Assembly (NCBI GenBank): GCA_013697005.1
Contig: JACCXM010000094.1
Coordinates: 1 to 40,078, forward strand
Reading direction: 5' to 3'
Length of the DNA: 40,078 nt
Origin: Chloroflexia bacterium
Lineage (GTDB): Bacteria > Chloroflexota > Chloroflexia > Thermomicrobiales > UBA6265
The position numbers and the translations under genes are program-made. Below are positions 24,192 to 38,467 of this stretch, piece by piece; positions within the stretch are counted from its first letter, which is position 1; every line of letters begins with the position of its first letter. The notes below the pieces were generated by a model that worked only from the letters and a program-made list of their open reading frames with translations, did not search any database and was not told the origin of the DNA.

Positions 24192-27038
24192 TTACGTGCT
24201 TCCAGCGAACTGCCGCGCGGAAATCCGCTCGCGCTCCGCCGCTTCAAGCCATTTCCTGGCCGCATCCGGAAGATCCATCATGCTGCCGACCGCAACCGAA
24301 CACTCCGGAAGTGACTGCAAGAAGGTGGCCCCGTACCGTTTCGTCAGGATTCTCCTGTCAAGGACGGCGCACACGCCACGATCCTGACCAGATCGAATCA
24401 GCCTGCCGAATCCTTGCTTGAAACGCAGTACTGCCTGTGGCACGGCGTAGTCATTGAATGCATTGTCGAATGCTTCGCTGCGTGCGGCAAACACGGGATC
24501 GGTGGGCACACTGAAAGGCAATCTCGTGATCACCAGCAGGCTCAACGCATCACCCGCCACGTCGACTCCCTCCCAGAACGACGCGGTACCAAGCACGGCG
24601 ACATTGGACTCGCCCCGCAACCGTTCTGTCAACTGTTGCGGCGATCCGTCCCGCCGCTGCGCCAGCACCACGATTCCGGCGTCGTGAAGGGGCGCGGTGA
24701 TCGCCCTCGCCATGTCAGCCAGTAAGGCGTGAGAGGTGAACAGCACGAGCGCCCGGCCCTTGGTCGCGGCAATAGCCTCGATCAGCGTCCGCTCCAGCGC
24801 GTCGCGGTACTCTGGAAATATCGGCTCCGGCATATCGTCGGTGAGATAGAGCAAGACCGAGGCACGATAATCGAACGGCGAAGGCACAATGAGCGAAGAC
24901 GCATCGGGTATGCCAAGTCGCGATGCCAGGTAATCACAACGCCCGTCGACGGCCAGGGTCGCGGATGTCAACACCGTAGCCCGTGTTTGTTTGAACAGGC
25001 GCTCCCGGAGCAATTCACTGACGTCGAGCGGGGCGGATCGAAACGCGATCCGATTGAGAAGACCTTGCCGTTCAAGCCAGAAAACTCTGCCCGATTCCGG
25101 CGCGTCCAGTGCATTCGCGAACTTGGCCGCCAACTCCGTACCGGCACGAAGCGCGTTGCCGAGATCGCCAAGAAGCAACTCCTGGCGCTCCCCGGCCTCG
25201 GCGAGATCGGCCGCGGCGACATCATCGACCTCGGCAACGGCGGTGGCGAACCAGCGCAACGCGGTCTCTGCCTCGTGCAGACTCCCGAGCAACCGATCCC
25301 ACCCCGCTTCAACCGCTTGCCAGGCCGGCGCCGCGCGCGTCGCGGCGGTCACACGTTTCGCGCGTTCGGATGCGGCACCGCCGTTCTCCGCATCGAGATG
25401 CACGAATTCGAGTGCCGCAAACAGATCGCGGCCCGCGGTCCGCACGGTGTCCGCTGCCGCCCGCGCGGCGATCAATCGCTCCCGGCCGAGACGGGCGCGC
25501 CGCTGCGCCGCACTGTCGGCCGCGGCGCCAAGCAGAAATGCGATCGCTCCCGCCGTGACGCCGGATACCGCGTCCCCATCGCCACTGGCGACCGCGTCGG
25601 CGTATTCGGTGAGATCGCGCTCGGTCAACGTGACGGTGAACTGCGCCGTGGCCTGCGCTTCGAGATGATGTGCCTCATCGATCACGAGCGCGTCGTAATT
25701 GGGCAGGATGCCGTTACTCGACACCGCGTCCGTCAGCAGCAACGCGTGATTCACAACAACCAAGTGCGCGCTCCCCGCCGCGCGCCGCGCACGGAACAGA
25801 AAGCACTGCCCGCGTTGATGAAACACGCACGATCCGGGTTCGCACGCGCCTTCGTCTTCAGAAATCTGCCGCCAATGCACTTCTTCGCCGCCGGTCAATT
25901 GCAACTCCGCGCGATCTCCGGATGTCGTCCTGGGCAACCAGGCCAGCGCTTTTGCTTTCAGGCGTGACTCGTCGGGATCGACTGAAAGTTGACGTTCCCA
26001 GGGAAACCATCGTCGCAGGCAGAGGTAGTTCGCGCGTCCCTTGAGGGTGGCGACGCGAAGGCCCACATCGTCCTCGACATAGTTGAGTGCCGCGATAAGA
26101 TCCGGAACGTCCTTCCGTATCAACTGATCCTGCAACGCGAGCGTGTTCGTCGAGAGCACGACCGGTTCACCGCGCTCGCTCGCCGAAAGCGCGGCGGGGA
26201 CCAGATACGCCAGGCTTTTGCCCGTGCCGGTGCCGGCCTCGACCAGAATCTGCCCGCTTTCGTTGATCGCGGCCGCGACCGCCTCCGCCATTTGCTCTTG
26301 CTGGCGCCGTCGCTCAAATCCCGAGATGACCTTTGTCAGCGCGCCATCAGCACCGATCACCGCCCGCAGCGTTCGTTCGTCGACTGGTTCCATCGACCCC
26401 GTTGGTTCAAGCGGATCTTCGCGCGGCCGGTCTCGCAGAAACTGAATTTCCGGGGGTTGCAAACGGTTCTTCGCACGCGGATTGCCGGGACGTAGCGCGA
26501 AGAGATCGGCAAATGGCCACCCACCCTCGGACACATGGGTCGCCAGGCGATCGAGCGTGACATCGTCATACTCGGCGATACGGCCGAGCAACGCCACGAA
26601 CACGTCCGCGACGACGCCTGCCCTGGTGCGATCCGAGTCTGTCAGCACGGGATCGATGCCGAGCGCATTGGCAAGCGCGTCAAGATTTGTCGCCGCTAAT
26701 CCAGGCACGAGAATCGACGCCAGTTCCACGGTATCGATCGCCGTCCGGTTCAAACGAAGCCCCTCGGCGGCCATCACCGCCAGCGACCGCGCACTGTCGT
26801 GGACGACGACTGGCTGATCACGGATCAATGCACGGAGATCATTGGCGACATCCGGCCAGGGCGCAGCGGCGGGCGCCGACCCGGGGGTTGCCTCCATCGT
26901 CGCCCGTTCTCCGCTCGCGGCGACCGAAACGGCTGAAAGCGAGCAAACGCGATCACGCCGCGGATCAGATCCGGTCGTCGTCACCGATAATGCAACAAAT
27001 GGCGGGATCACGATGGGGCGGTGACCTTCTAGTGGCAA
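24192..27038 (-). CDS. dinG: DinG-family Fe-S helicase with inactive DnaQ-like N-terminal domain
   Basis: XPD-like 5'-3' DNA helicase for repair and resolution of unusual DNA structures. The 948-residue protein has an N-terminal DnaQ/exonuclease-like domain (about 1-180) and a superfamily 2 helicase: Walker A VEAGTGTGKSLAY, four cysteines in the Fe-S position (YLCLRRW, GACEPGSC, GQC), DEAH box VIDEAHHLEA, and C-terminal motifs LVLFTSHALL, GTASFWEGVDVAG and FKQGFGRLIRSGQDRG. The exonuclease motif DxET is SVTTTG, and the later Asp and His residues are also missing, so nuclease activity is not expected. Start uncertain: TTG 27038 overlaps the previous stop; GTG 27011 is the alternative and keeps the whole domain. 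Confidence 0.88.
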   Translation of the reverse strand: MPLEGHRPIVIPPFVALSVTTTGSDPRRDRVCSLSAVSVAASGERATMEATPGSAPAAAPWPDVANDLRALIRDQPVVVHDSARSLAVMAAEGLRLNRTAIDTVELASILVPGLAATNLDALANALGIDPVLTDSDRTRAGVVADVFVALLGRIAEYDDVTLDRLATHVSEGGWPFADLFALRPGNPRAKNRLQPPEIQFLRDRPREDPLEPTGSMEPVDERTLRAVIGADGALTKVISGFERRRQQEQMAEAVAAAINESGQILVEAGTGTGKSLAYLVPAALSASERGEPVVLSTNTLALQDQLIRKDVPDLIAALNYVEDDVGLRVATLKGRANYLCLRRWFPWERQLSVDPDESRLKAKALAWLPRTTSGDRAELQLTGGEEVHWRQISEDEGACEPGSCVFHQRGQCFLFRARRAAGSAHLVVVNHALLLTDAVSSNGILPNYDALVIDEAHHLEAQATAQFTVTLTERDLTEYADAVASGDGDAVSGVTAGAIAFLLGAAADSAAQRRARLGRERLIAARAAADTVRTAGRDLFAALEFVHLDAENGGAASERAKRVTAATRAAPAWQAVEAGWDRLLGSLHEAETALRWFATAVAEVDDVAAADLAEAGERQELLLGDLGNALRAGTELAAKFANALDAPESGRVFWLERQGLLNRIAFRSAPLDVSELLRERLFKQTRATVLTSATLAVDGRCDYLASRLGIPDASSLIVPSPFDYRASVLLYLTDDMPEPIFPEYRDALERTLIEAIAATKGRALVLFTSHALLADMARAITAPLHDAGIVVLAQRRDGSPQQLTERLRGESNVAVLGTASFWEGVDVAGDALSLLVITRLPFSVPTDPVFAARSEAFDNAFNDYAVPQAVLRFKQGFGRLIRSGQDRGVCAVLDRRILTKRYGATFLQSLPECSVAVGSMMDLPDAARKWLEAAERERISARQFAGST

Positions 27039-28365: not shown

Positions 28366-28457
28366 TTGCTTCAGACCAGGCTTTACCAGACCACGTCTTG
28401 CGACCTTGCCGAACAGGCAGCACACCGAGGACGAAATCAACACGCGGAGGATCGAGA

Positions 28458-30188
28458 GTGGCATACCACCGGTATGACGCGGTCATTGTCGGAGCGGGCG
28501 GCGCCGGTCTCATGGCAGCCATCCAGATGGCTGGCAAAGCCAATATCGCCGTCGTCAGCAAGCTGTATCCAACGCGATCGCATACCGGCGCCGCGCAGGG
28601 TGGGATAAGCGCGGCGCTCGGCAACGTCGAGGAAGACCACTGGCAATGGCATATGTTCGACACGGTCAAGGGTGGCGACTATCTCGTCGACCAGGACGCC
28701 GCAGAGGTTCTGACGCGAGAGGCCATTGACGCGGTGCTCGAGCTGGAGCACATGGGGCTGCCCTTCAATCGTACACCCGACGGCCGTCTCGATCAGCGTC
28801 GCTTCGGCGGGCATACCAGAAACTTCGGCGAAGGTCCCGTTAAGCGCGCTTGCTACGCCGCCGATCGAACCGGCCACATGATTCTGCAGACGCTGTATCA
28901 GCAGGGAATCAAACACAACGTCAACTTTCTCGATGAGTTCCATGTCCTCGATCTTCTTGTCAGCGATGAAGGACATGCCTGCGGCGTGGTCGCCCTGGAA
29001 CTGAAGACGGGCGAAATCCACACCATTCACGCCAAGACCGTGCTCTGGGCCACGGGAGGCTTTGGCCGTATCTTCAGTGTCACTTCGAATGCGATGGCCG
29101 GCACGGGAGATGGTTTCTCGATTCCCTTCCGTCGCGGTGTTCCTCTAATGGACATGGAGTTTTATCAGTTTCATCCGACGGGAATCTACAAGTTCGGCAT
29201 CCTCCTTTCTGAGGCAGCTCGTGGCGAAGGCGGCATTCTGCGCAATGGTCTTGGCGAGGCATTCGCAGAACGATACGCACCGACGCTGAAAGACCTGGCG
29301 CCGCGCGATATGGTGTCGCGGTTCATCTATCAGGAGATCAAGGAAGGGCGCGGTGTCGACGGCAAGGATTATGTCTATCTCGACCTGACGCATTTGCCCG
29401 GCGACGTCATCGACCGGCAACTCCCCGATATTACTGATTTCGCCCGGACGTACCTCGGTATCGAGCCCAAGACCGATCTCATGCCGATCCAGCCCACCGC
29501 TCACTACGCCATGGGGGGGATTCCGACCGATCTCAACGGCCAGGTCTTACGCGACGCCAGCGCCACCACCATCCCCGGTCTCTACTCCGCGGGTGAGAAC
29601 GCCTGTGTCTCGGTCCACGGCGCCAATCGGCTCGGCACCAACTCCCTGGTCGACCTCGTCGTCTTTGGCCGGCGCGCCGGGCGGCACATGCTGGATTACA
29701 TCCGTTCGAACGATTTGCCACCGTTGCCAGTCGATCCCGAGTTCGTCGCCCGCGCCGAAGTCTCCGATGTCCTGTCGAGACCGAAAACGGAACGGGTCGC
29801 CGCACTGCGCCATGAGCTCCAGGTGTTGATGATGGACAAGGCCTCGGTTGTGCGGAACGTGGAAGGCCTGACCGAAGCGAAGCAAGGTGTGGCCCAGATT
29901 CGGTCCCGTTACGCACACGCCGGGATCGACGATCATGGCCTGACGTTCAACACCGATTTGACCGAGGCGCTGGAACTGGGTGCGATGCTTGATTGCTCCG
30001 AAGCGCTGGTGGAGGGCGCGCTAGCCCGCCAGGAGAGCCGCGGCGCTCATTACCGCACCGACTTTCCAGACCGCGACGACGAGAACTGGTTGAAACACAC
30101 CATGGTGCGCAAGACTTCGGGCGGTCTCGAGCTCACGAAGAAAAGCGTATCCATCACCGAGTTTCAACCAAAAGAGCGAAAATACTAG
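28458..30188 (+). CDS. sdhA: Succinate dehydrogenase flavoprotein subunit
   Basis: Oxidises succinate to fumarate at a covalently bound FAD (TCA cycle, respiratory complex II; cytoplasmic face of the membrane). The 576-residue protein shows the dinucleotide motif [13 protein letters not shown], the FAD-linking His in [19 protein letters not shown], the substrate-site FHPTGIY, the catalytic Arg region [27 protein letters not shown] and the C-terminal [19 protein letters not shown]. Start GTG 28458 has GGAGG seven bases upstream, which rules out the longer open frame from 28398. sdhB follows after 10 bases. Confidence 0.96.
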
Positions 30189-30198
30189 GTCAGGAGCG

Positions 30199-30900
30199 AT
30201 GGTGGACTATACGTTTCGGATAAAACGGTACAACCCCGACGTCGATGTCAAACCGCATTTTGAGGAATACGCGATCGGACTCGAACCGACCGACCGCGTG
30301 CTCGATGGTCTGAACGAAATCAAGTGGCAATTGGACGGAACCCTCACCTACCGGCGTTCCTGCGCCCACGGTGTCTGTGGGTCTGACGCCATGCGCATCA
30401 ATGGCCGTAACTACTTGGCCTGCAAGACGCTGATGAAAGAATTTGGCCACAAGATCACCATCGAACCTATGATCGGGTTCACGGTCATCAAGGATCTCGT
30501 CGTCGACATGGACCCATTTTTCGCTGGCTACAAGGCGGTTAAGCCCTATCTCATTGCCGGCGACGCGCCGGCATCCGCCGAGCGTAGGCAGACCCCCGAA
30601 CAGCTCGACCGTTTCGAAGAAGCGACCAAGTGTATTCTGTGCGCCTCATGCACGACCGCCTGCCCGATCACCTGGACGAACGAAAGCTTTTTGGGTCCGG
30701 CGGCGATCGTTAACGCCGCGCGCTTCATCTATGACAGCCGCGACGAGGGCGCCGCCGAGCGGTTACGCATCCTCAACACGCAATCCGGCGTCTGGCGATG
30801 CCGCACGGTGTTCAATTGCACCGAAGCTTGCCCAAGGGACATCAAAGTCACCAATATCATCGAGGACGTCAAGCGGACCTTGTTGTTGGAACAGTTGTAG
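30199..30900 (+). CDS. sdhB: Succinate dehydrogenase iron-sulfur subunit
   Basis: Transfers electrons from FAD to quinone through three Fe-S clusters. The 233-residue protein has the 2Fe-2S loop with CAHGVCGSDAM and a later Cys (NYLAC), the 4Fe-4S motif CILCASCTTACP, and the 3Fe-4S region CRTVFNCTEACPRDI. As in E. coli SdhB, the third ligand position of the 2Fe-2S cluster is Asp and not Cys. ATG 30199, AGGAG upstream. No classical sdhC/sdhD is adjacent; the next gene encodes a small membrane protein. Confidence 0.96.
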   Translation: MVDYTFRIKRYNPDVDVKPHFEEYAIGLEPTDRVLDGLNEIKWQLDGTLTYRRSCAHGVCGSDAMRINGRNYLACKTLMKEFGHKITIEPMIGFTVIKDLVVDMDPFFAGYKAVKPYLIAGDAPASAERRQTPEQLDRFEEATKCILCASCTTACPITWTNESFLGPAAIVNAARFIYDSRDEGAAERLRILNTQSGVWRCRTVFNCTEACPRDIKVTNIIEDVKRTLLLEQL

Positions 30901-30926
30901 TCCGCCAGCGCCTGGCAACGATAGCC

Positions 30927-31391
30927 GTGGAGTCGATCTGGGTCTGGCTGAACACCCCGCCAACCGTCGGGGACGTGATTGACCTGTTCTGCATCGTCTA
31001 TCTCGCCATCTTCGCGCTCGGGTTTCTGGCATCGGTGTATCTCGGCGGTTCCGGCGCTGAGCGTCTGGCCCCAAATGCGATTCAGCGTGATGGCATCCGA
31101 CACTGGGCTCGGGTCGGACAGTGGATCTTCGGAACGGGACTGTTCTTTTTCGGCGTTCGCGCCTTACAGATCAATCCGCTGTCATTCGGCGAACCGATCT
31201 GGTTGGTTGGCAGTCTGCTGGCGTTGCTCGTCGCAGCGATCCGTTGTGTGGATTGGTGGCGAACAACCTACAGGGCGCAATTGGAAGCTCACGACCCTCG
31301 GGACGAGATTCACGCGATCAACACAAAGAACGCCCCGCTCGTATCCGAGCGAGGCGTCCAAGATTGGCCGTGCACCCCTTGTCGATCCTGA
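30927..31391 (+). CDS. Three-helix membrane protein downstream of sdhAB
   Basis: The 154-residue product has three hydrophobic segments at about residues 16-38 (VIDLFCIVYLAIFALGF), 61-82 (WIFGTGLFFFGVRALQI) and 91-111 (WLVGSLLALLVAAIRCV), with a His (RHWARVG) just before the second. It starts at GTG 30927, 26 bases after sdhB, with a poor ribosome site. Its position makes it a candidate membrane anchor of the succinate dehydrogenase, but it does not look like SdhC or SdhD, and I do not recognise a family. Its last 23 codons overlap the terminator and 3' end of the SRP RNA gene on the other strand. Confidence 0.65.
   Translation: MESIWVWLNTPPTVGDVIDLFCIVYLAIFALGFLASVYLGGSGAERLAPNAIQRDGIRHWARVGQWIFGTGLFFFGVRALQINPLSFGEPIWLVGSLLALLVAAIRCVDWWRTTYRAQLEAHDPRDEIHAINTKNAPLVSERGVQDWPCTPCRS
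31323..31356 (-). terminator. Intrinsic terminator of the SRP RNA gene
   Basis: On the minus strand an 11-bp stem (CGCCTCGCTCG / CGAGCGGGGCG, 31331-31356, GATA loop, one G-T pair) is followed by TTCTTTGT. It lies inside the 3' coding part of the membrane-protein gene on the plus strand. Confidence 0.75.
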
Positions 31392-31632
31392 TGACCCGGC
31401 TTGTCGGCGATCGCTTGCTCCGGTTGGGCTTCCCCACGTCACCCGGGGAGGTCGGTTTACGGCTGCTACCTTCCGGTCCTGACCGGGTTCGCCGTTCCCC
31501 GCCGCGCGGGACCCTTCCATCGACACCGCGTGTCGTCGCCAGTCCCGAAGCACCGGACCTCGAAGAGGAATTCGACCCCGCTAAGGCGGATTGCGGGTAC
31601 AGGGCACCGCCAGCTCCCCATCTAGCACGACC
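31385..31632 (-). ncRNA. ffs: Signal recognition particle RNA, large type with Alu domain
   Basis: RNA scaffold of the signal recognition particle, binding Ffh. The minus strand contains the universal apical hairpin of helix 8: GGTCAGGACCGGAAGG followed by TAGCAGCCGTAA (31457-31484). Flanking arms pair outward, for instance CGGGGA with TCCCCG and GGCGA with TCGCC. Upstream, at 31560-31629, the minus strand reads GTGCTAGATGGGGAG, then GGCGGTGCCCTGTA, CCGCAATCCGCC and GAATTCCTC, the hallmark of the Alu domain in large bacterial and archaeal SRP RNAs. The transcript is therefore about 250 bases and not the roughly 100-base 4.5S type. The 5' end is inferred from the promoter; the 3' end (within about 15 bases) from helix 5 pairing, and is probably trimmed from the terminator. 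Confidence 0.88.
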
Positions 31633-31638
31633 AGCCGG

Positions 31639-31667
31639 AGTGTAGTTTTCCGTCAAGTTTGTGTCAA
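31639..31667 (-). promoter_or_regulatory. Strong promoter of the SRP RNA gene
   Basis: On the minus strand TTGACA (31662-31667, consensus) and TACACT (31639-31644) are 17 bases apart, the best promoter in the window and fitting for a stable RNA. Its -35 box contains the TGA stop of the upstream ferredoxin gene. Confidence 0.75.
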
Positions 31668-32050
31668 AACCGCTCCCGGTTATTCCCGGTTCCGTTCGAT
31701 CCGGAGGGACACTCCAGCGGCCATGATTCAGGTTGTGGTCCCGCATCACCCATGTCCGGATTGTCCTTGAGCCGGCGGAGAATGTTCACTGTCAGATCGT
31801 CGCAACAACGGACTTGACACGAGAGTCGCATGTTCTCCGGCAACTCGTCGAGCGTAGCCAGCTTGGCTTGCTCCGCTTCGGTCATTGGCCCAGGATCGCC
31901 CGCCATGATTTGCACCCGGCACGTCGTACAGCGAGCATTGCCGCCGCAGCGGTGCAGGATATCGACCCCCGCGTCCATGATCGCCAGCACGAGCCGTTGC
32001 CCATCCGGCGCGCTCGTGTTCCCGATCCCCCGCATATGAATCGTCGCCAC
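31664..32050 (-). CDS. 2Fe-2S ferredoxin
   Basis: Plant/adrenodoxin-type electron carrier of 128 residues. The cluster ligands are visible as C-x5-C-x2-C (HRCGGNARCTTCRV) with the fourth Cys in RLSCQ; TEAEQAKLA and LPENMRLSCQVR are typical of this group. The tail of about 30 residues after the domain is polar and Pro/Gly-rich. Start GTG 32050, AGGAAA upstream; ATG 32035 is an in-frame alternative. The stop codon lies within the -35 box of the SRP RNA promoter. The 109 bases upstream (32051-32159) hold nothing I can identify. Confidence 0.88.
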   Translation of the reverse strand: MATIHMRGIGNTSAPDGQRLVLAIMDAGVDILHRCGGNARCTTCRVQIMAGDPGPMTEAEQAKLATLDELPENMRLSCQVRCCDDLTVNILRRLKDNPDMGDAGPQPESWPLECPSGSNGTGNNRERF

Positions 32051-32734: not shown

Positions 32735-33004
32735 ATGGTGCAGCGAGTTCTCGATTGGGTATTCAAACGAGAGCGAGAAGAACCTGAGGCACCAGTGTGC
32801 CCGAATCACCGAACTCCGATGCAGATGCGCGGTGTGGTTGGCCGGCCGACGCGGTTTAGCTACCAGACGGAAGAAACCTACACCGTGATCTACTTTTGTC
32901 CCATACCTGGATGCGCGGAAACCGCTGAAACGCAGATGGCGATGACCCAGATTCCGGTGCCTGGGGCAGCGCCGCGACGTCCTGACTACGCTCGGCGCGA
33001 TTGA
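32735..33004 (+). CDS. Small zinc-ribbon-like protein, 89 aa
   Basis: The protein has a short basic N-terminal helix (MVQRVLDWVFKRERE) and a candidate metal site made of CPNH and, 35 residues later, CPIPGC, plausibly a zinc ribbon or similar knuckle. Function unknown. Start ATG 32735 is supported by GGAGGAG eight bases upstream; the GTG at 32705 is not. The 3' end overlaps the convergent dUTPase gene by 19 bases. Confidence 0.65.
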   Translation: MVQRVLDWVFKREREEPEAPVCPNHRTPMQMRGVVGRPTRFSYQTEETYTVIYFCPIPGCAETAETQMAMTQIPVPGAAPRRPDYARRD

Positions 33005-33561
33005 CCGGGACGCTCCACAGGGAGATTCTCCCCCTGATACGCGCCATCGTAACCACGGATCGTCGGTTCATTGAGCGTGAGAAACACGAGCTGCATCAAT
33101 CGTGCATCGCGCTCGATCCGAATGCCGGCGAGGTTCTCCACGAGGAGCAATGCCGTCGATCTCCCTCGATATCCCGCATCCCATACGGCAGTGACGATCG
33201 TCGCCCCCGCTCGACAGAGACTCGAGCGAGGTCTTCCCAATGCCATGAGACTGTTTGGCAGCGCCACCGTTTCATTGAAAATGATCTGATATGGACCGGG
33301 ACGCAGGTCCAGCCAGCCGCTGCCGTCGAATGGAATCGGCTGCACTTCGGGCAACGTCCGGTTCGCGTTGGAGCGGCCGATCGCGCCGCCACCGGCAAAT
33401 TGCCCGACTTCGGCCAAGCTGAGGTCGAATCCGTTCGGCTGGAGCTGATCTTCCAGCGAAACGAATCCAGAAATGAGTGGCGCCGTTCCCTGGATACGAA
33501 CCAGCAGCTCTTCACGTCCGAGCGCGCCACCGACGCCAGAGTATTCGCTCGCCCCGCTCAT
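32986..33561 (-). CDS. dut: dUTP diphosphatase, archaeal/dCTP-deaminase-like type
   Basis: Hydrolyses dUTP to dUMP and pyrophosphate, keeping uracil out of DNA. The 191-residue protein has the Dcd/Dut trimer fold: LQPNGFDLSLAEV near residue 40, PGPYQIIFNETVALP, the phosphate-binding GRPRSSLCRAGA and the motif AVWDAGYRGRS with the catalytic Asp, then NARL-like ERDARLMQLVF. The Glu that dCTP deaminases use for deamination (in ITLEL) is Leu here, so this is a dUTPase and not a deaminase. The pattern closely recalls archaeal dUTPases. ATG 33561 shares one base with the stop of the Rieske gene (TGATG), so it is translationally coupled to the suf operon. Confidence 0.8.
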   Translation of the reverse strand: MSGASEYSGVGGALGREELLVRIQGTAPLISGFVSLEDQLQPNGFDLSLAEVGQFAGGGAIGRSNANRTLPEVQPIPFDGSGWLDLRPGPYQIIFNETVALPNSLMALGRPRSSLCRAGATIVTAVWDAGYRGRSTALLLVENLAGIRIERDARLMQLVFLTLNEPTIRGYDGAYQGENLPVERPGQSRRA

Positions 33562-33887
33562 CACGCGGGCCGTTTGGCAACGAACACGGCGTCTCCTTCG
33601 GTTTTCACCGCAAACGTCTCCACCGGCACCACGACCGGGAAGTTCGCCGGAAGCCCGGTGCGGACCTCGAAAGCGCCGCCGTGCATCGGACACTCAATCT
33701 CATCACCGATGATTTCGCCGTCCGACAACGACGCGTCCTGATGCGTGCACATGTCATGCAATGCAAAAAACTCGCCATCGAGATTGATGAGTGCAACGGG
33801 ATCGTTGCCAACTTCGACGTACATGACTTCGCCAGGGGCGAGATCGCTCGTCTTCGCGACCTCATGCCAGTTCAGGGTATCTGCCAC
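33561..33887 (-). CDS. Rieske 2Fe-2S ferredoxin-like protein
   Basis: A 108-residue Rieske-type small ferredoxin as in non-heme dioxygenase systems and many suf operons. The cluster ligands are CTH (MCTHQDASLSDG) and CPMH (IECPMHGGAF), two Cys and two His. Start GTG 33887 (VADTLNWHEVAK) with GAGGAG very close upstream; the longer open frame would overlap sufU. It lies between sufU and the dUTPase; electron delivery during cluster assembly is a reasonable inference. Confidence 0.87.
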   Translation of the reverse strand: MADTLNWHEVAKTSDLAPGEVMYVEVGNDPVALINLDGEFFALHDMCTHQDASLSDGEIIGDEIECPMHGGAFEVRTGLPANFPVVVPVETFAVKTEGDAVFVAKRPA

Positions 33888-33937
33888 GCGCTCCTCGAAC
33901 CTGATCCCTGCCGCCGTCGATCCCAAGCGTGCCCCGG

Positions 33938-34330
33938 CTACAGCGAATCGTCCGCCGGTGGGACACCATAGATACCGGCCTTGAGGACCTTGAGCCCGAG
34001 CATCGCGCATTTCATGCGTGCCGGACTGATCGGTACGCCCAGCTCCTCCAGAAGATCTTCGCGGCTAATCGCTTTTACCTCGTCCAGCGGACGGCCTTCG
34101 ACCAGTTCCATCAGGATCGACGCGGCGGCCTGGCTGATAGCACAGCCTCGCCCGGAAAACCGGACATCCGTCACCCGCTCTCCGTCCGTCCGCACATCGA
34201 TGCGAATCTCGTCACCGCAAAGCGGGTTCACATCTTCGTACGAGAAATCCGCCGGGTCGAGAGTTCCCTTGTTGCGGGGATTGCGAAAATGATCAAGAAT
34301 CGTTTCCCGGTAAAGACTGTCTGTCACCAC
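33938..34330 (-). CDS. sufU: SUF scaffold/sulfur acceptor SufU
   Basis: Zinc-containing partner that takes sulfur from SufS. The 130-residue protein has the three conserved cysteines (NPLCGDE, GRGCAIS, KCAMLGL), an Asp in GDE, and the insertion before the third Cys that separates SufU from IscU. It begins MVTDSLYRETILDHFRNP. GTG 34330 and GTG 34327 are alternative adjacent starts. It follows sufS by nine bases. Confidence 0.92.
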   Translation of the reverse strand: MVTDSLYRETILDHFRNPRNKGTLDPADFSYEDVNPLCGDEIRIDVRTDGERVTDVRFSGRGCAISQAAASILMELVEGRPLDEVKAISREDLLEELGVPISPARMKCAMLGLKVLKAGIYGVPPADDSL

Positions 34331-34339
34331 TCCCCCGCT

Positions 34340-35593
34340 CTAGGCCGCGAAGATCGCCTGCGCCCGCCGCAGACCAGAAACGAGGCGATCGACGTCATCT
34401 TCGTCGTTGTAAACATAGAAGGAGGCCCGGGTCGTCGCGACGAGTCCAAGCCGATCCATTAACGGTTGGCAACAGTGATGTCCGGCGCGCACCGCCACAT
34501 TCTCTTCGTTCAATATTGCGGCTACGTCGTGAGGGTGAATGTCACCAAGCGTGAACGAAAGCGTGCCGCCTCGCAACCCTGGTTTTTCCGGCCCGTATAG
34601 CCGCAGTTCCGGGATCCCCTGGAGTCGCTCGACCGCCAGTTGCGTCAAGTTGTGCTCGTGCTCTCCCACCTCAGCCATGCCAATCTGTTGCAGATACTCG
34701 ACCGCCGCGCCCAGACCGACCGCATCGGCGACGGACGGGGTACCCGCTTCGAACCGGGCCGGGACATCGGCGAAGGTCGATCGTTCGATCGAGACCTTTC
34801 GGATCATGCCGCCCCCGCCCATGAACGGCGGCATGTCCTCGAGCAGCGCCAGCTTCCCGTAGAGTGCGCCAGATCCCATCGGACCTAGCATCTTGTGCCC
34901 GGAGAAGGCGAGGAAATCAGTGTCCAACTCCCGCACGTCGACCGGCATGTGCGGAACGCTCTGCGCTCCGTCAACCACCGTCACCGCGCCAGCATCATGT
35001 GCCATCCGGACGATCTCCGCCGCGGGATTTATGGTGCCGAGGCTATTGGACACGTGGGGAAATGCGACAAGCTGTGGGCCCATTGCCAGCAACTCACCGA
35101 GGTGACTCATGTCGAGGCGGCCGTCGTCCGTGATGCGCACCGCTTCGATGCGAGCGCCCTTTTCGTCCGCCAGGAGCTGCCAAGGTACCAGGTTGGAGTG
35201 GTGATCCATCGTCGTCACCACGATCAGGTCGCCAGCCGCGATGTTGCGGCGGCCCCAGGTCTGAGCGACGAGATTGATCGCCTCCGTCGTGTTGCGGACG
35301 AAAACGATTTCGCGGGCAGAGGCCGCATTGACGAAATCAGCCACCATGTGGCGCGCTGCCTCGTACTGCGCGGTCGCCCGTTCCGAGAGGTCGTACACCC
35401 CCCGGTGGATGTTGGCGTTCGTCTCTCGATAGTAGCAGTCGACCGCGGCGATGACGGACTCCGGTTTCTGCGAGCTGGCGGCGCTATCGAGAAACGCGAG
35501 TCGCTGTCCGCGCGCATCGACAGAGTTCAATATCGGGAAATCATCCCGGATTTTCAGCCAATCTCGAGTTTTCTCAGTGACGGAGCTGACCAT
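34340..35593 (-). CDS. sufS: Cysteine desulfurase SufS
   Basis: Class II PLP-dependent desulfurase that passes sulfur to SufU. The 417-residue protein contains FLDSAASSQKPESVI, IHRGVYDLSE, TTEAINLVAQTW, DHHSNLVPWQ, the cofactor Asp in VVDGAQSVPH, the PLP Lys in FSGHKMLGPMGSG, and the catalytic Cys in RAGHHCCQPLM on the short loop typical of SufS. ATG 35593 with AAGGAAAA upstream. It lies between sufD and sufU. Confidence 0.95.
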   Translation of the reverse strand: MVSSVTEKTRDWLKIRDDFPILNSVDARGQRLAFLDSAASSQKPESVIAAVDCYYRETNANIHRGVYDLSERATAQYEAARHMVADFVNAASAREIVFVRNTTEAINLVAQTWGRRNIAAGDLIVVTTMDHHSNLVPWQLLADEKGARIEAVRITDDGRLDMSHLGELLAMGPQLVAFPHVSNSLGTINPAAEIVRMAHDAGAVTVVDGAQSVPHMPVDVRELDTDFLAFSGHKMLGPMGSGALYGKLALLEDMPPFMGGGGMIRKVSIERSTFADVPARFEAGTPSVADAVGLGAAVEYLQQIGMAEVGEHEHNLTQLAVERLQGIPELRLYGPEKPGLRGGTLSFTLGDIHPHDVAAILNEENVAVRAGHHCCQPLMDRLGLVATTRASFYVYNDEDDVDRLVSGLRRAQAIFAA

Positions 35594-35623
35594 GATCTTT
35601 TCCTTTTGTCCGGTGCGCCGCTC

Positions 35624-36982
35624 CTATATTCCGACCTTGCGCGCGATTGCCGTCTCCAGAAAGTGCTGAATCTCCTCGACGGGAACGCGGTCGATAATCG
35701 GGCGGAAAAACCCCTCGACTATCAGATTCTGCGCTTCGGAACGAGGCAACCCACGTGTCTGTAAGTAAAAAAGATGCTCCTCCTCGACCTGGGAAACGGT
35801 CGCGCCATGAGTACAACGCACATCGTTGGCGGCGATCTCCAGGTTCGGAATGGAATCCGCCCGCGCCGTGCGGCTGAGAATGAGGTTGCGGTTCTGCTGA
35901 TAGGCGTCGGTCTTTTGCGCTCCCTCGTCGACTTTGATCAAACCCGAGTAGACCGACCGCGCATTGCCCTTCAATGCCCCTTTAAACTCGAGGTCACTCG
36001 TGCCGAAGGGTGACTCATGAAGCTGCCACGTGTGATGATCGAAGAACTGGTCGCCATCGGCAAAGTAAATGCCCAGCATCTCAGCCAGCGTGTTCTTCCC
36101 GCGCAAGTGCGCCGCAATGGACGATTTGGAAAACTTCGCGCCAAGGGTGACGTGCAGCGAGTTCAGCGTCGCATCCTGACCGAGAATTGCCCGCTCGGTC
36201 ATAAAGTTCCAGACGTCACGACCCCAATCCTGAACCTGAACGTAGCGGAGCCTGGCGTCCTGCCCGACAATCAACTCGACCACGGCCGAAGCAAACGACT
36301 GAACGTCCTGCGATGGCGAGCGATAGGCATCGGCGACAAACGCTTGAGCCCCCTCTTCGAGCACCACCAGGGTATGCGAGAAGACCGCCGCGCCCGGTTC
36401 CGAGATCAGGCTGAAGGCGCGAAACGGCGCCTCGACCTTGACGCCCCGCGGGACGTAAAGAAACGAGCCCCCTTGCCAGAAGGCGGCGTGCAGCGCCTGG
36501 AACTTCCCCATCGACGGCAGAACCGCCTGGGTCATGAAGTATCGCTCGACAAGGTCCGCGTGCTCGCGGTACGCGGTCGCCAGATCGGTGAAGATCACGC
36601 CTTGCGCCGCGACCTCGGCGTCAAGCGTCGCCAGAATCGTTGCCGCGTCTCGCTGCACAATCACGCCGGCGTTGGGACCGAGCGCAATTTGCGCGGCCGC
36701 ATTCTCGACTCCGGCCTCTTCGAGCCCGGAGAGCGGGGATACACCCGCGGCTTCGACTCCGGCAGTTGGTCTGAGCCGATCGAGTTTCAGACCACGCAGA
36801 TCCGTTCTGCGCCATTCTTCATCTGTACGCTGCGGCATGGGGAGAGACTCGAACAGTTCCCACGCCCGCATGCGTGCCTCGCGACTGGCGCCGGTTTCTC
36901 GGTGCGCTCGCGAGATGACTGCGACACCCTCTCGCGAGAATCCCGTCGTCGCCACGTCGCTGACTTCAGCGATGGTGCTCAT
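35624..36982 (-). CDS. sufD: Fe-S assembly protein SufD
   Basis: Beta-helix subunit of the SufBC2D scaffold complex. The 452-residue protein has an N-terminal helical part with the conserved RTDEEWRRTDLRGL, the beta-helix core (GSFLYVPRGVKVEAPF) and the C-terminal signature CTHGATVSQVEEEHLFYLQTRGL, ending EIQHFLETAIARKVGI. The residues of this block that hold the cluster together with SufB are present. Start ATG 36982. The 84-base gap to sufB holds two overlapping hairpins. Confidence 0.94.
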   Translation of the reverse strand: MSTIAEVSDVATTGFSREGVAVISRAHRETGASREARMRAWELFESLPMPQRTDEEWRRTDLRGLKLDRLRPTAGVEAAGVSPLSGLEEAGVENAAAQIALGPNAGVIVQRDAATILATLDAEVAAQGVIFTDLATAYREHADLVERYFMTQAVLPSMGKFQALHAAFWQGGSFLYVPRGVKVEAPFRAFSLISEPGAAVFSHTLVVLEEGAQAFVADAYRSPSQDVQSFASAVVELIVGQDARLRYVQVQDWGRDVWNFMTERAILGQDATLNSLHVTLGAKFSKSSIAAHLRGKNTLAEMLGIYFADGDQFFDHHTWQLHESPFGTSDLEFKGALKGNARSVYSGLIKVDEGAQKTDAYQQNRNLILSRTARADSIPNLEIAANDVRCTHGATVSQVEEEHLFYLQTRGLPRSEAQNLIVEGFFRPIIDRVPVEEIQHFLETAIARKVGI

Positions 36983-37014
36983 GGATATGTAATCTCCCGA
37001 CCTGCTATGTATGA

Positions 37015-37048
37015 CCCGCTGCGGCTGCGGGCGACGCAGGCGTCGCCC
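37015..37048 (-). promoter_or_regulatory. Overlapping, mutually exclusive hairpins between sufB and sufD
   Basis: On the minus strand GGGCGACG-loop-CGTCGCCC (37029-37048) is followed by CCCGC-loop-GCGGG (37015-37031); they share the three C residues. No T-tract follows, so this looks more like an mRNA processing or stability element than a terminator. Confidence 0.4.
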
Positions 37049-37066
37049 TGCTACCAGTGCAGTCGA

Positions 37067-38467
37067 TTAACCGACGGAACCTTCCATTTCGAGCTGGATC
37101 AACCGGTTCAACTCGACCGCGTATTCGAGCGGCAACTCTTTCGCGATCGGCTCGATGAAGCCGTTGACGATCATGCTCATGGCTTCGTCCTGAGAGAGAC
37201 CGCGGCTCATCAAGTAGAAAATCTGCTCTTCGGCGACTTTGGACACGGTGGCCTCGTGGCCGATCGATGCCCGCTCTTCTTCGACTTCGATGTACGGATA
37301 CGTGTCGGTCTTGCTGGTTTCATCGAGGAGCAGTGCGTCACAGACCACGTTGCTGCGAACTTCCTCGGCGCCCTTGTAGACCTTCACCAGACCGCGATAG
37401 GAGGAACGGCCGGTTCCCTTGGAAATCGATTTGGAAATGATCTGCGACGATGTCCGCGGCGCGACATGGACCACCTTGCCGCCGGCGTCCTGATGTTGGC
37501 CGTCGCTGGCAAAGGCGACCGAGAGAATCTCGCCGCGGGCGCCCTCTTCCATCAGCCAGACCGCCGGGTACTTCATCGTCACCTTGGAGCCGAGGTTGCC
37601 GTCGACCCACTCCATGGTGGCGTTCTTGTAGGCTGCGGCCCGCTTGGTCACCAGGTTGTAGACATTTTTCGACCAGTTCTGAATCGTCGTGTAGCGGCAG
37701 CGTCCGCCTTCGAGCACGACGATCTCGACGACTGCCGAGTGCAGGCTGTTCGTGGTGTAGGTCGGCGCCGTGCATCCTTCGACATAATGCACATACGCGT
37801 CCTTATCGACAATGATCAGGGTCCGCTCGAATTGCCCCATGTTCTCCGCGTTGATGCGGAAGTACGCCTGCAAGGGTACGTCGATCTTGACTCCCGGCGG
37901 CACGTAAATGAACGAGCCACCCGACCAGACCGCCGAGTTGAGCGCGGCGAACTTGTTGTCGTTGTAGGGGATGATCGTGCCAAAATACTTCTTGACCAGC
38001 TCCGGATGTTCGCGCACGCCGGAATCCATGTCGAGAAAGATCACCCCGAGCTTTTCGAGGTCTTCGCGCAGCGAGTGGTAAATGACCTCACTTTCATACT
38101 GCGCGCCCACGCCGGCCAGGAACTTGCGCTCCGCTTCCGGGATACCGAGCTTCTCGAAGGTGTTCTTGATGTACTCGGGAACCTCGTCCCAGGTCTTGCC
38201 CTGCTTCTCGGCGGGGCGGATGTAGTAGAAGATCTCATCAAAGTCGATTCCGGACAAATCGGCGCCCCAGTTCGGCATCGGACGCTTCTCGAAGTGATCG
38301 AGCGCCTTCAACCGAAAGTCACGCATCCAGTCAGGTTCGTCTTTCATCGCCGAGATTTCTTCGACGGTTCCGCGGGTTAGTCCACGGCCGCTCTTGAATA
38401 CGTAATCTTCCTCGTCGCGAAACCCGTACTTGTACTCGCCGATGTCTACTTGTGGCGCAGCAACCAT
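37067..38467 (-). CDS. sufB: Fe-S assembly protein SufB
   Basis: Scaffold subunit on which clusters are built, with SufC and SufD. The 466-residue protein contains [41 protein letters not shown], the stretch [20 protein letters not shown] with a conserved Cys, [14 protein letters not shown], and the C-terminal block [20 protein letters not shown]. Full length. ATG 38467 has AAGGAG upstream. It follows sufC by 42 bases. Confidence 0.96.

Follow-up and report, generated by a model that had tools for sequence, protein, structure and literature searches.

The window, by which we mean the whole stretch of 40,078 nucleotides analysed here, carries on its minus strand a gene for a large bacterial SRP RNA whose Alu domain is complete. 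Our main reading, to which we assign a probability of about 0.9, is that this gene yields a single large Bacillus-type SRP RNA of approximately 263 nt from its own promoter and terminator, and that this RNA would mediate an Alu-dependent delay of elongation as in Bacillus subtilis. At the level of sequence we regard as established the RNA and its complete Alu fold (through covariation), the matches to a promoter and a terminator, a gene for Ffh, and the gene's native origin in Chloroflexota.

Identity and extent of the SRP RNA gene

A search of the whole window against Rfam returned one match, to RF01854 (Bacteria_large_SRP), which places a 263-nt large SRP RNA gene of the ffs/scr type at 31630..31368 on the minus strand. 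The match covers model positions 1-256 of 256 and scores 175.8 bits (E 3.6e-29), against a curated cut-off of 60 bits that alone is insufficient to assign the large type: in other genomes, RNAs of the small type exceed it too. This end-to-end match bears out the preliminary description, which had proposed a large SRP RNA with an Alu domain. Of the extent first given, 31385-31632, the 5′ end lies close to the predicted transcription start, and the 3′ end falls 17 bases short of 31368. The two motifs then quoted, GGCGGTGCCCTGTA (31611..31598) and CCGCAATCCGCC (31596..31585), are found on the minus strand as claimed.

When the large and small Rfam models were run, as had been proposed, the outcome was not a match to the small model only. 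Taken alone, the small-SRP model RF00169 scores 67 bits over 31419-31518, or 100 of the 263 bases, and RF01854 prevails over it in clan competition. An annotation of the small type, which had been expected to miss half of the RNA, would in fact omit 163 of 263 bases (about 60%). The stretch recognised by RF00169 (31419..31518, minus strand) is the Ffh-binding core of the S domain, formed by helix 8 with its GGAA tetraloop and by distal helix 5. The helix 8 hairpin reported earlier, GTCAGGACCGGAAGGTAGCAGC, is present on the minus strand with the tetraloop at 31474..31471. The genome also encodes Ffh (TIGR00959, 594 bits), and searches with both the large and small models recovered the window RNA as its only SRP RNA, in single copy.

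Comparison with the B. subtilis scRNA (6S SRP RNA, RF01854) revealed RNAs of 265 nt there and 263 nt here, both matching RF01854 end to end and both possessing helices 1-5 and 8, no helix 6, a UGUAC motif and a five-pair L2/L1.2 pseudoknot (AGCGG/CCGCU in B. subtilis, GGCGG/CCGCC in the window). They differ in score (250.4 versus 175.8 bits), in the higher G+C of the window RNA and in location: the Bacillus gene lies between tadA and dnaX, whereas the window gene sits beside sdhAB and a ferredoxin gene. The small SRP RNA (4.5S type, RF00169) shares helix 8, distal helix 5 and the GGAA tetraloop, but is only about 100 nt long and lacks helices 1-4 and the pseudoknot. Archaeal SRP RNAs resemble the window RNA in helix 1, the loop-loop pseudoknot and a protein-free Alu domain (PMC8137916, PMC2905702); unlike it, they have helix 6 and SRP19. 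We found no helix 6 within the RF01854 match and no SRP19 gene in the genome, in a search that did return matches for archaeal controls. The initial label "archaeal/Bacillus-like" is thus retained for its Bacillus half and dropped for its archaeal half. The window RNA belongs to a known family, RF01854, and is unexceptional within it.

Alu fold, flanking signals and proposed function

The Alu domain is complete: it has helices 1-4, the UGU motif and, linking the loops of helices 3 and 4, a pseudoknot of five pairs. Its 5′ part occupies 31574..31630 on the minus strand, as delimited by the RF01854 alignment and by pair counts in 42 relatives. On the same strand, helix 1 joins 31625-31630 to a 3′ strand at 31368..31373, assigned from pair counts, and closes the ends of the RNA; helix 2 pairs 31620-31622 with 31574-31576, helix 3 pairs 31616-31619 with 31601-31604, and helix 4 pairs 31593-31597 with 31577-31581. 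The UGU motif lies between helices 3 and 4 (CCCUGUACC, the same in B. subtilis), with UGUA at 31598-31601. The helix 3 loop (L2, GGCGG, 31607..31611, minus strand) pairs and covaries with the helix 4 loop (L1.2, CCGCC, 31585..31589, minus strand), so that the pseudoknot joins RNA nucleotides 20-24 with 42-46. Alu RNAs of bacteria and archaea are characterised by five continuous loop-loop pairs and a helix 1 (PMC8137916); a second account describes the loop-loop interaction as well as the UGU motif (PMC2905702). The Rfam consensus for helix 3, with eight pairs and a three-base loop, was set aside, its inner part holding an A-G mismatch here; because these inner bases mismatch and can pair with the helix 4 loop, we adopted a four-pair helix 3 together with the pseudoknot.

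We assessed this fold in an alignment of 42 Chloroflexota RNAs made with MAFFT without structural information, counting the 48 pairs of helices 1-4, the L2/L1.2 pseudoknot and the distal 5/8 helices. Paired cells reached 98.3%, compared with 88.6% in shuffles and 37-46% when partners were slid; two-sided changes occurred in 28 of the 48 pairs, and none of 500 shuffles attained the observed value on any measure. Pairing was kept in 96.8% of cells in helix 2, 100% in helix 3 and 96.2% in helix 4, helix 3 being invariant in the relatives and therefore offering no evidence from covariation. The five-pair pseudoknot is possible in all 47 of 47 sequences, with compensatory changes, against a rate of 13% for the same five-pair search elsewhere in the RNA. 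Most relatives carry AGCGG/CCGCU. The window shares GGCGG/CCGCC with three members of its own family (L082, L096, L097) and with one locus of another family (L093), a distribution from which we conclude that this double change arose more than once on the tree. Other versions are AGCGA/UCGCU (L094), UGGGC/GCUCA (L147) and, with one gap shifted by hand, UGUGA/UCACA (L138).

Three loci (L138, L147 and L155) combine complete Alu domains with strong divergence and long branches on the tree; in L138 and L147 the pseudoknot has been rewritten through compensatory changes. Single-sequence energy folding of the window RNA was no better than shuffles (z +2.05), so the fold derives from comparison; a high G+C content and a pseudoknot make such a result unsurprising.

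The predicted promoter, a strong sigma-70-type match, consists of TTGACA, a 17-nt spacer and TACACT (31639..31667, minus strand; predicted start near 31632). It agrees with the consensus at 10 of 12 positions, where none was expected in 50 shuffles, and most relatives have a promoter-like pair 8-11 nt before the RNA. Downstream, a putative intrinsic terminator at 31328..31359 (minus strand) comprises a 14-pair stem followed by TTTGTGTT, with 0.3 such elements expected by chance. Several Thermomicrobiales relatives show G+C-rich hairpins 3′ of the RNA, their flanks having been read by eye.

These observations bear on an alternative in which the functional RNA would be of the small type only (about 100 nt) and the Alu-like sequence a relic or processed away. 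Targeting in many bacteria needs just the small type, and related Chloroflexota families live with it. However, the two outermost ends of the RNA are joined in helix 1 by six pairs kept in 100% of cells, three of them with two-sided, compensatory changes; the pseudoknot has covaried at least two times independently within the order (in the f1 clade and in L093); and 8 nt separate the promoter from the 5′ end of the Alu domain. We therefore regard a small-only RNA as very improbable.

Upstream of the RNA and on the same strand lies a 2Fe-2S ferredoxin-like gene (31664..32050, minus strand), whose NCBIfam matches are weak and all below cut-off. Its stop codon overlaps the -35 box, and the gene also neighbours the SRP RNA in four other loci (L079, L083, L096, L097). 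On the opposite strand, an ORF at 30798-31391 (+) that follows sdhB encodes a small membrane-like protein, conserved at 27-46% in Thermomicrobiales and without a match in NCBIfam; its 3′ end overlaps both the 3′ end of the SRP RNA and the terminator. A SUF iron-sulphur cluster operon (32986-38467, minus strand), with SufS, SufB and a SufU-like ORF, lies near sdhAB and two ferredoxin-like genes. Elsewhere in the window, 24192-27038 (minus strand) encodes a DinG/YoaA-like helicase of 948 aa whose N-terminal part appears exonuclease-like; its matches lie below curated cut-offs.

In the proposed mechanism, transcription would begin at the RNA's own promoter and stop at the intrinsic terminator, so that the mature RNA would measure about 263 nt. 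Ffh would attach to helix 8 and distal helix 5 and, at the ribosomal tunnel exit, recognise signal sequences and hydrophobic segments; helix 5 would span to an Alu domain kept shut by the L2/L1.2 pseudoknot together with helix 1. The B. subtilis Alu domain works by "dock-and-block", occupying the factor-binding site and so blocking elongation, with helix 1 taking over the stabilising role of SRP9/14 (PMC8137916), and ribosome profiling in that species shows pauses after the first transmembrane segment that fit Alu-dependent pausing (PMC4359368). By analogy, no extra protein should be required. Expression, ribosome docking and arrest by the window RNA are thus predictions, and we infer the arrest role from homology to B. 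subtilis and from selection on the fold.

A different possibility is that the full large RNA is made and its Alu domain contributes only to stabilising the RNA, to ribosome affinity or to the binding of an HU-like protein, without arrest. In eukaryotes the dedicated Alu-binding protein is SRP9/14, and HBsu has been proposed for that part in B. subtilis. Citations in PMC8230904 and PMC4359368 report binding of HBsu to the Alu domain of that species, and the window's genome encodes an HU-family protein. HU is near-universal and occurs also in Alu-less bacteria, so that the presence of its gene is no specific evidence of an Alu partner. Moreover, SRP reconstituted from B. subtilis Ffh and RNA alone binds stalled ribosomes (PMC8881573), and the conserved closed fold and pseudoknot are thought to be needed for docking at the factor site. 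We consider a non-arresting role unlikely and favour Alu-mediated elongation delay.

Native descent in Thermomicrobiales

The SRP RNA lies next to sdhA (succinate dehydrogenase flavoprotein; 28398..30188, plus strand; TIGR01816, 837 bits) and sdhB (iron-sulphur subunit; 30199..30900, plus strand; NF004616, 325 bits), both conserved neighbours. Most Thermomicrobiales loci preserve the arrangement sdhA-sdhB-(membrane ORF)-SRP RNA, in which the RNA gene lies on the opposite strand. A full-length large RNA was recovered in 36 of 41 genomes of the order (the window's own and 40 relatives), including all 22 of the 22 good-quality Thermomicrobiales genomes searched, and in the RNA tree the Thermomicrobiales RNAs form one clade (95/97) among those of Chloroflexota. 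Given the sdhAB linkage across the order and the grouping of the RNA with those of its relatives, the large SRP RNA is, on sequence grounds, native to Thermomicrobiales (Chloroflexota).

We also considered recent arrival from Bacillota or contamination of the contig, in favour of which stands a DNA identity of 71-75% with Bacillota SRP RNAs across some 170 nt. Both horizontal transfer and contamination were rejected: SdhB is 92-74% identical to that of Thermomicrobiales and Chloroflexi MAGs, the sdhAB synteny is shared across the order, the 22 good-quality relatives all carry the RNA, and the window RNA falls inside the Thermomicrobiales clade. Other Chloroflexota, furthermore, keep the RNA beside dnaX, as Bacillota do. 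A foreign source for this gene has almost no probability left.

Distribution and ancestry of the large type

The setting is non-Firmicute, as the preliminary description held (Thermomicrobiales, Chloroflexota); its implied unusualness does not stand, since many Chloroflexota have the large type and it occurs in Actinomycetota as well. Tallies of matches over the cut-off were rejected, as small-type RNAs also pass 60 bits (88-226 of the model in Longilinea, 111-211 in many others), and the large type was counted instead from E values <1e-13 or full 1-256 matches. By this measure, 226 of 400 Chloroflexota genomes (counted from the table) have a strong RF01854 match with E below 1e-13, and every listed Chloroflexota match down to 1.8e-28 spans 1-256. 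The whole-genome survey misses some true cases: the B. subtilis control went unmatched for RF01854, yet a B. subtilis copy scores 250 bits by cmscan, so these counts are lower bounds.

Negatives were rechecked by locating the small-SRP core and applying cmscan to its flanks. All 40 genomes so treated (36 with a weak RF01854 match or none) contain the core; cmscan prefers the small model in 35 of the 40, the large model in L127, L138, L147 and L155, which had been chosen as stronger cases, and the large model marginally in L149. Many Chloroflexota families thus have the small type only, as in Longilinea arvoryzae and Thermoflexales MAGs, and Sphaerobacter and Thermomicrobiales MAGs exemplify the large type. 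Because many related families live without it, the Alu domain is not essential across Chloroflexota. Large and small SRP RNAs also occur within single families (G167/G383 in f55; G102 and other f7 genomes; G108 and G047/G076 in f18), and this mixture of types points to recent Alu domain losses.

The large type extends to Actinomycetota. In a search of 297 genomes from the phylum to which Actinotalea solisilvae belongs (G464-G759), over 150 of the matches listed span 1-256 of RF01854, so that more than half of these genomes have the large type. Large SRP RNAs whose Alu domains are complete are common in this phylum, with loci L171-L175 as examples, in contrast to the published view that Actinobacteria are without them. 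WhiB, a family typical of Actinobacteria, is present in 3 to 10 copies in five large-type Actinomycetota genomes and in none of three Chloroflexota controls; its absence from the remaining genomes is compatible with Actinomycetota such as Coriobacteriia.

These data contradict the published distribution. According to a 2024 paper (PMC11431127), the large bacterial SRP RNA is limited to certain Firmicutes and a small number of Thermotogae; its 5′ domain has been said to occur among eubacteria in Endobacteria alone (PMC2837639), and evolutionary arguments have used a supposed loss in an ancestral actinobacterium (PMC1586193, PMC2837639). The wide spread of the large type may already be on record: existing Rfam models detect the RNA, and database curators may well be aware of where it occurs.

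Gene order provides further insight into ancestry. The RNA adjoins dnaX in four of the Actinomycetota loci (L171, L172, L174, L175) and probably in L173, as well as in eight from several Chloroflexota families (L107, L109, L110, L112, L115, L123, L125, L147); L115 displays tadA-SRP-dnaX, the order of Bacillus and Priestia. We favour common descent on account of this shared position beside dnaX, which argues for a large SRP RNA that was inherited vertically and would later have moved beside sdhAB in Thermomicrobiales.

Family f25, presumably Ktedonobacterales (L148, L149, L152, L176-L194; genomes of 4-14 Mb), has an SRP RNA of a third shape. A small-type core sits on a much longer helix 5, one 5′ hairpin directly follows the promoter, the helix 3/4 pseudoknot is absent, and helix 5 leads on its 3′ side into a U run resembling that of a terminator. 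The stem of the 5′ hairpin seems to covary (GTCCCA/TGGGAC, ATCCCA/TGGGAT, GTTCC/GGAAC), and the RNA adjoins dnaX in L148, L149 and L152. This architecture may represent a reduced Alu domain.

For annotation of the window the consequence is modest: the gene should be given 263 nt and not 100. Less ordinary than the RNA is the spread of its family beyond Firmicutes, Thermotogae and Endobacteria. We lean towards the view that an Alu-bearing SRP RNA beside dnaX is ancestral to at least Bacillota, Chloroflexota and Actinomycetota and was lost or reduced many times, once within Chloroflexota to the f25 architecture. If true, Chloroflexota would offer many natural Alu-plus/Alu-minus pairs for testing how cells make up for lost SRP-mediated arrest. 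The patchy loss within the phylum also allows the proposed trade-off of Alu arrest against pausing encoded in mRNA (PMC4359368) to be tested by comparing lineages.
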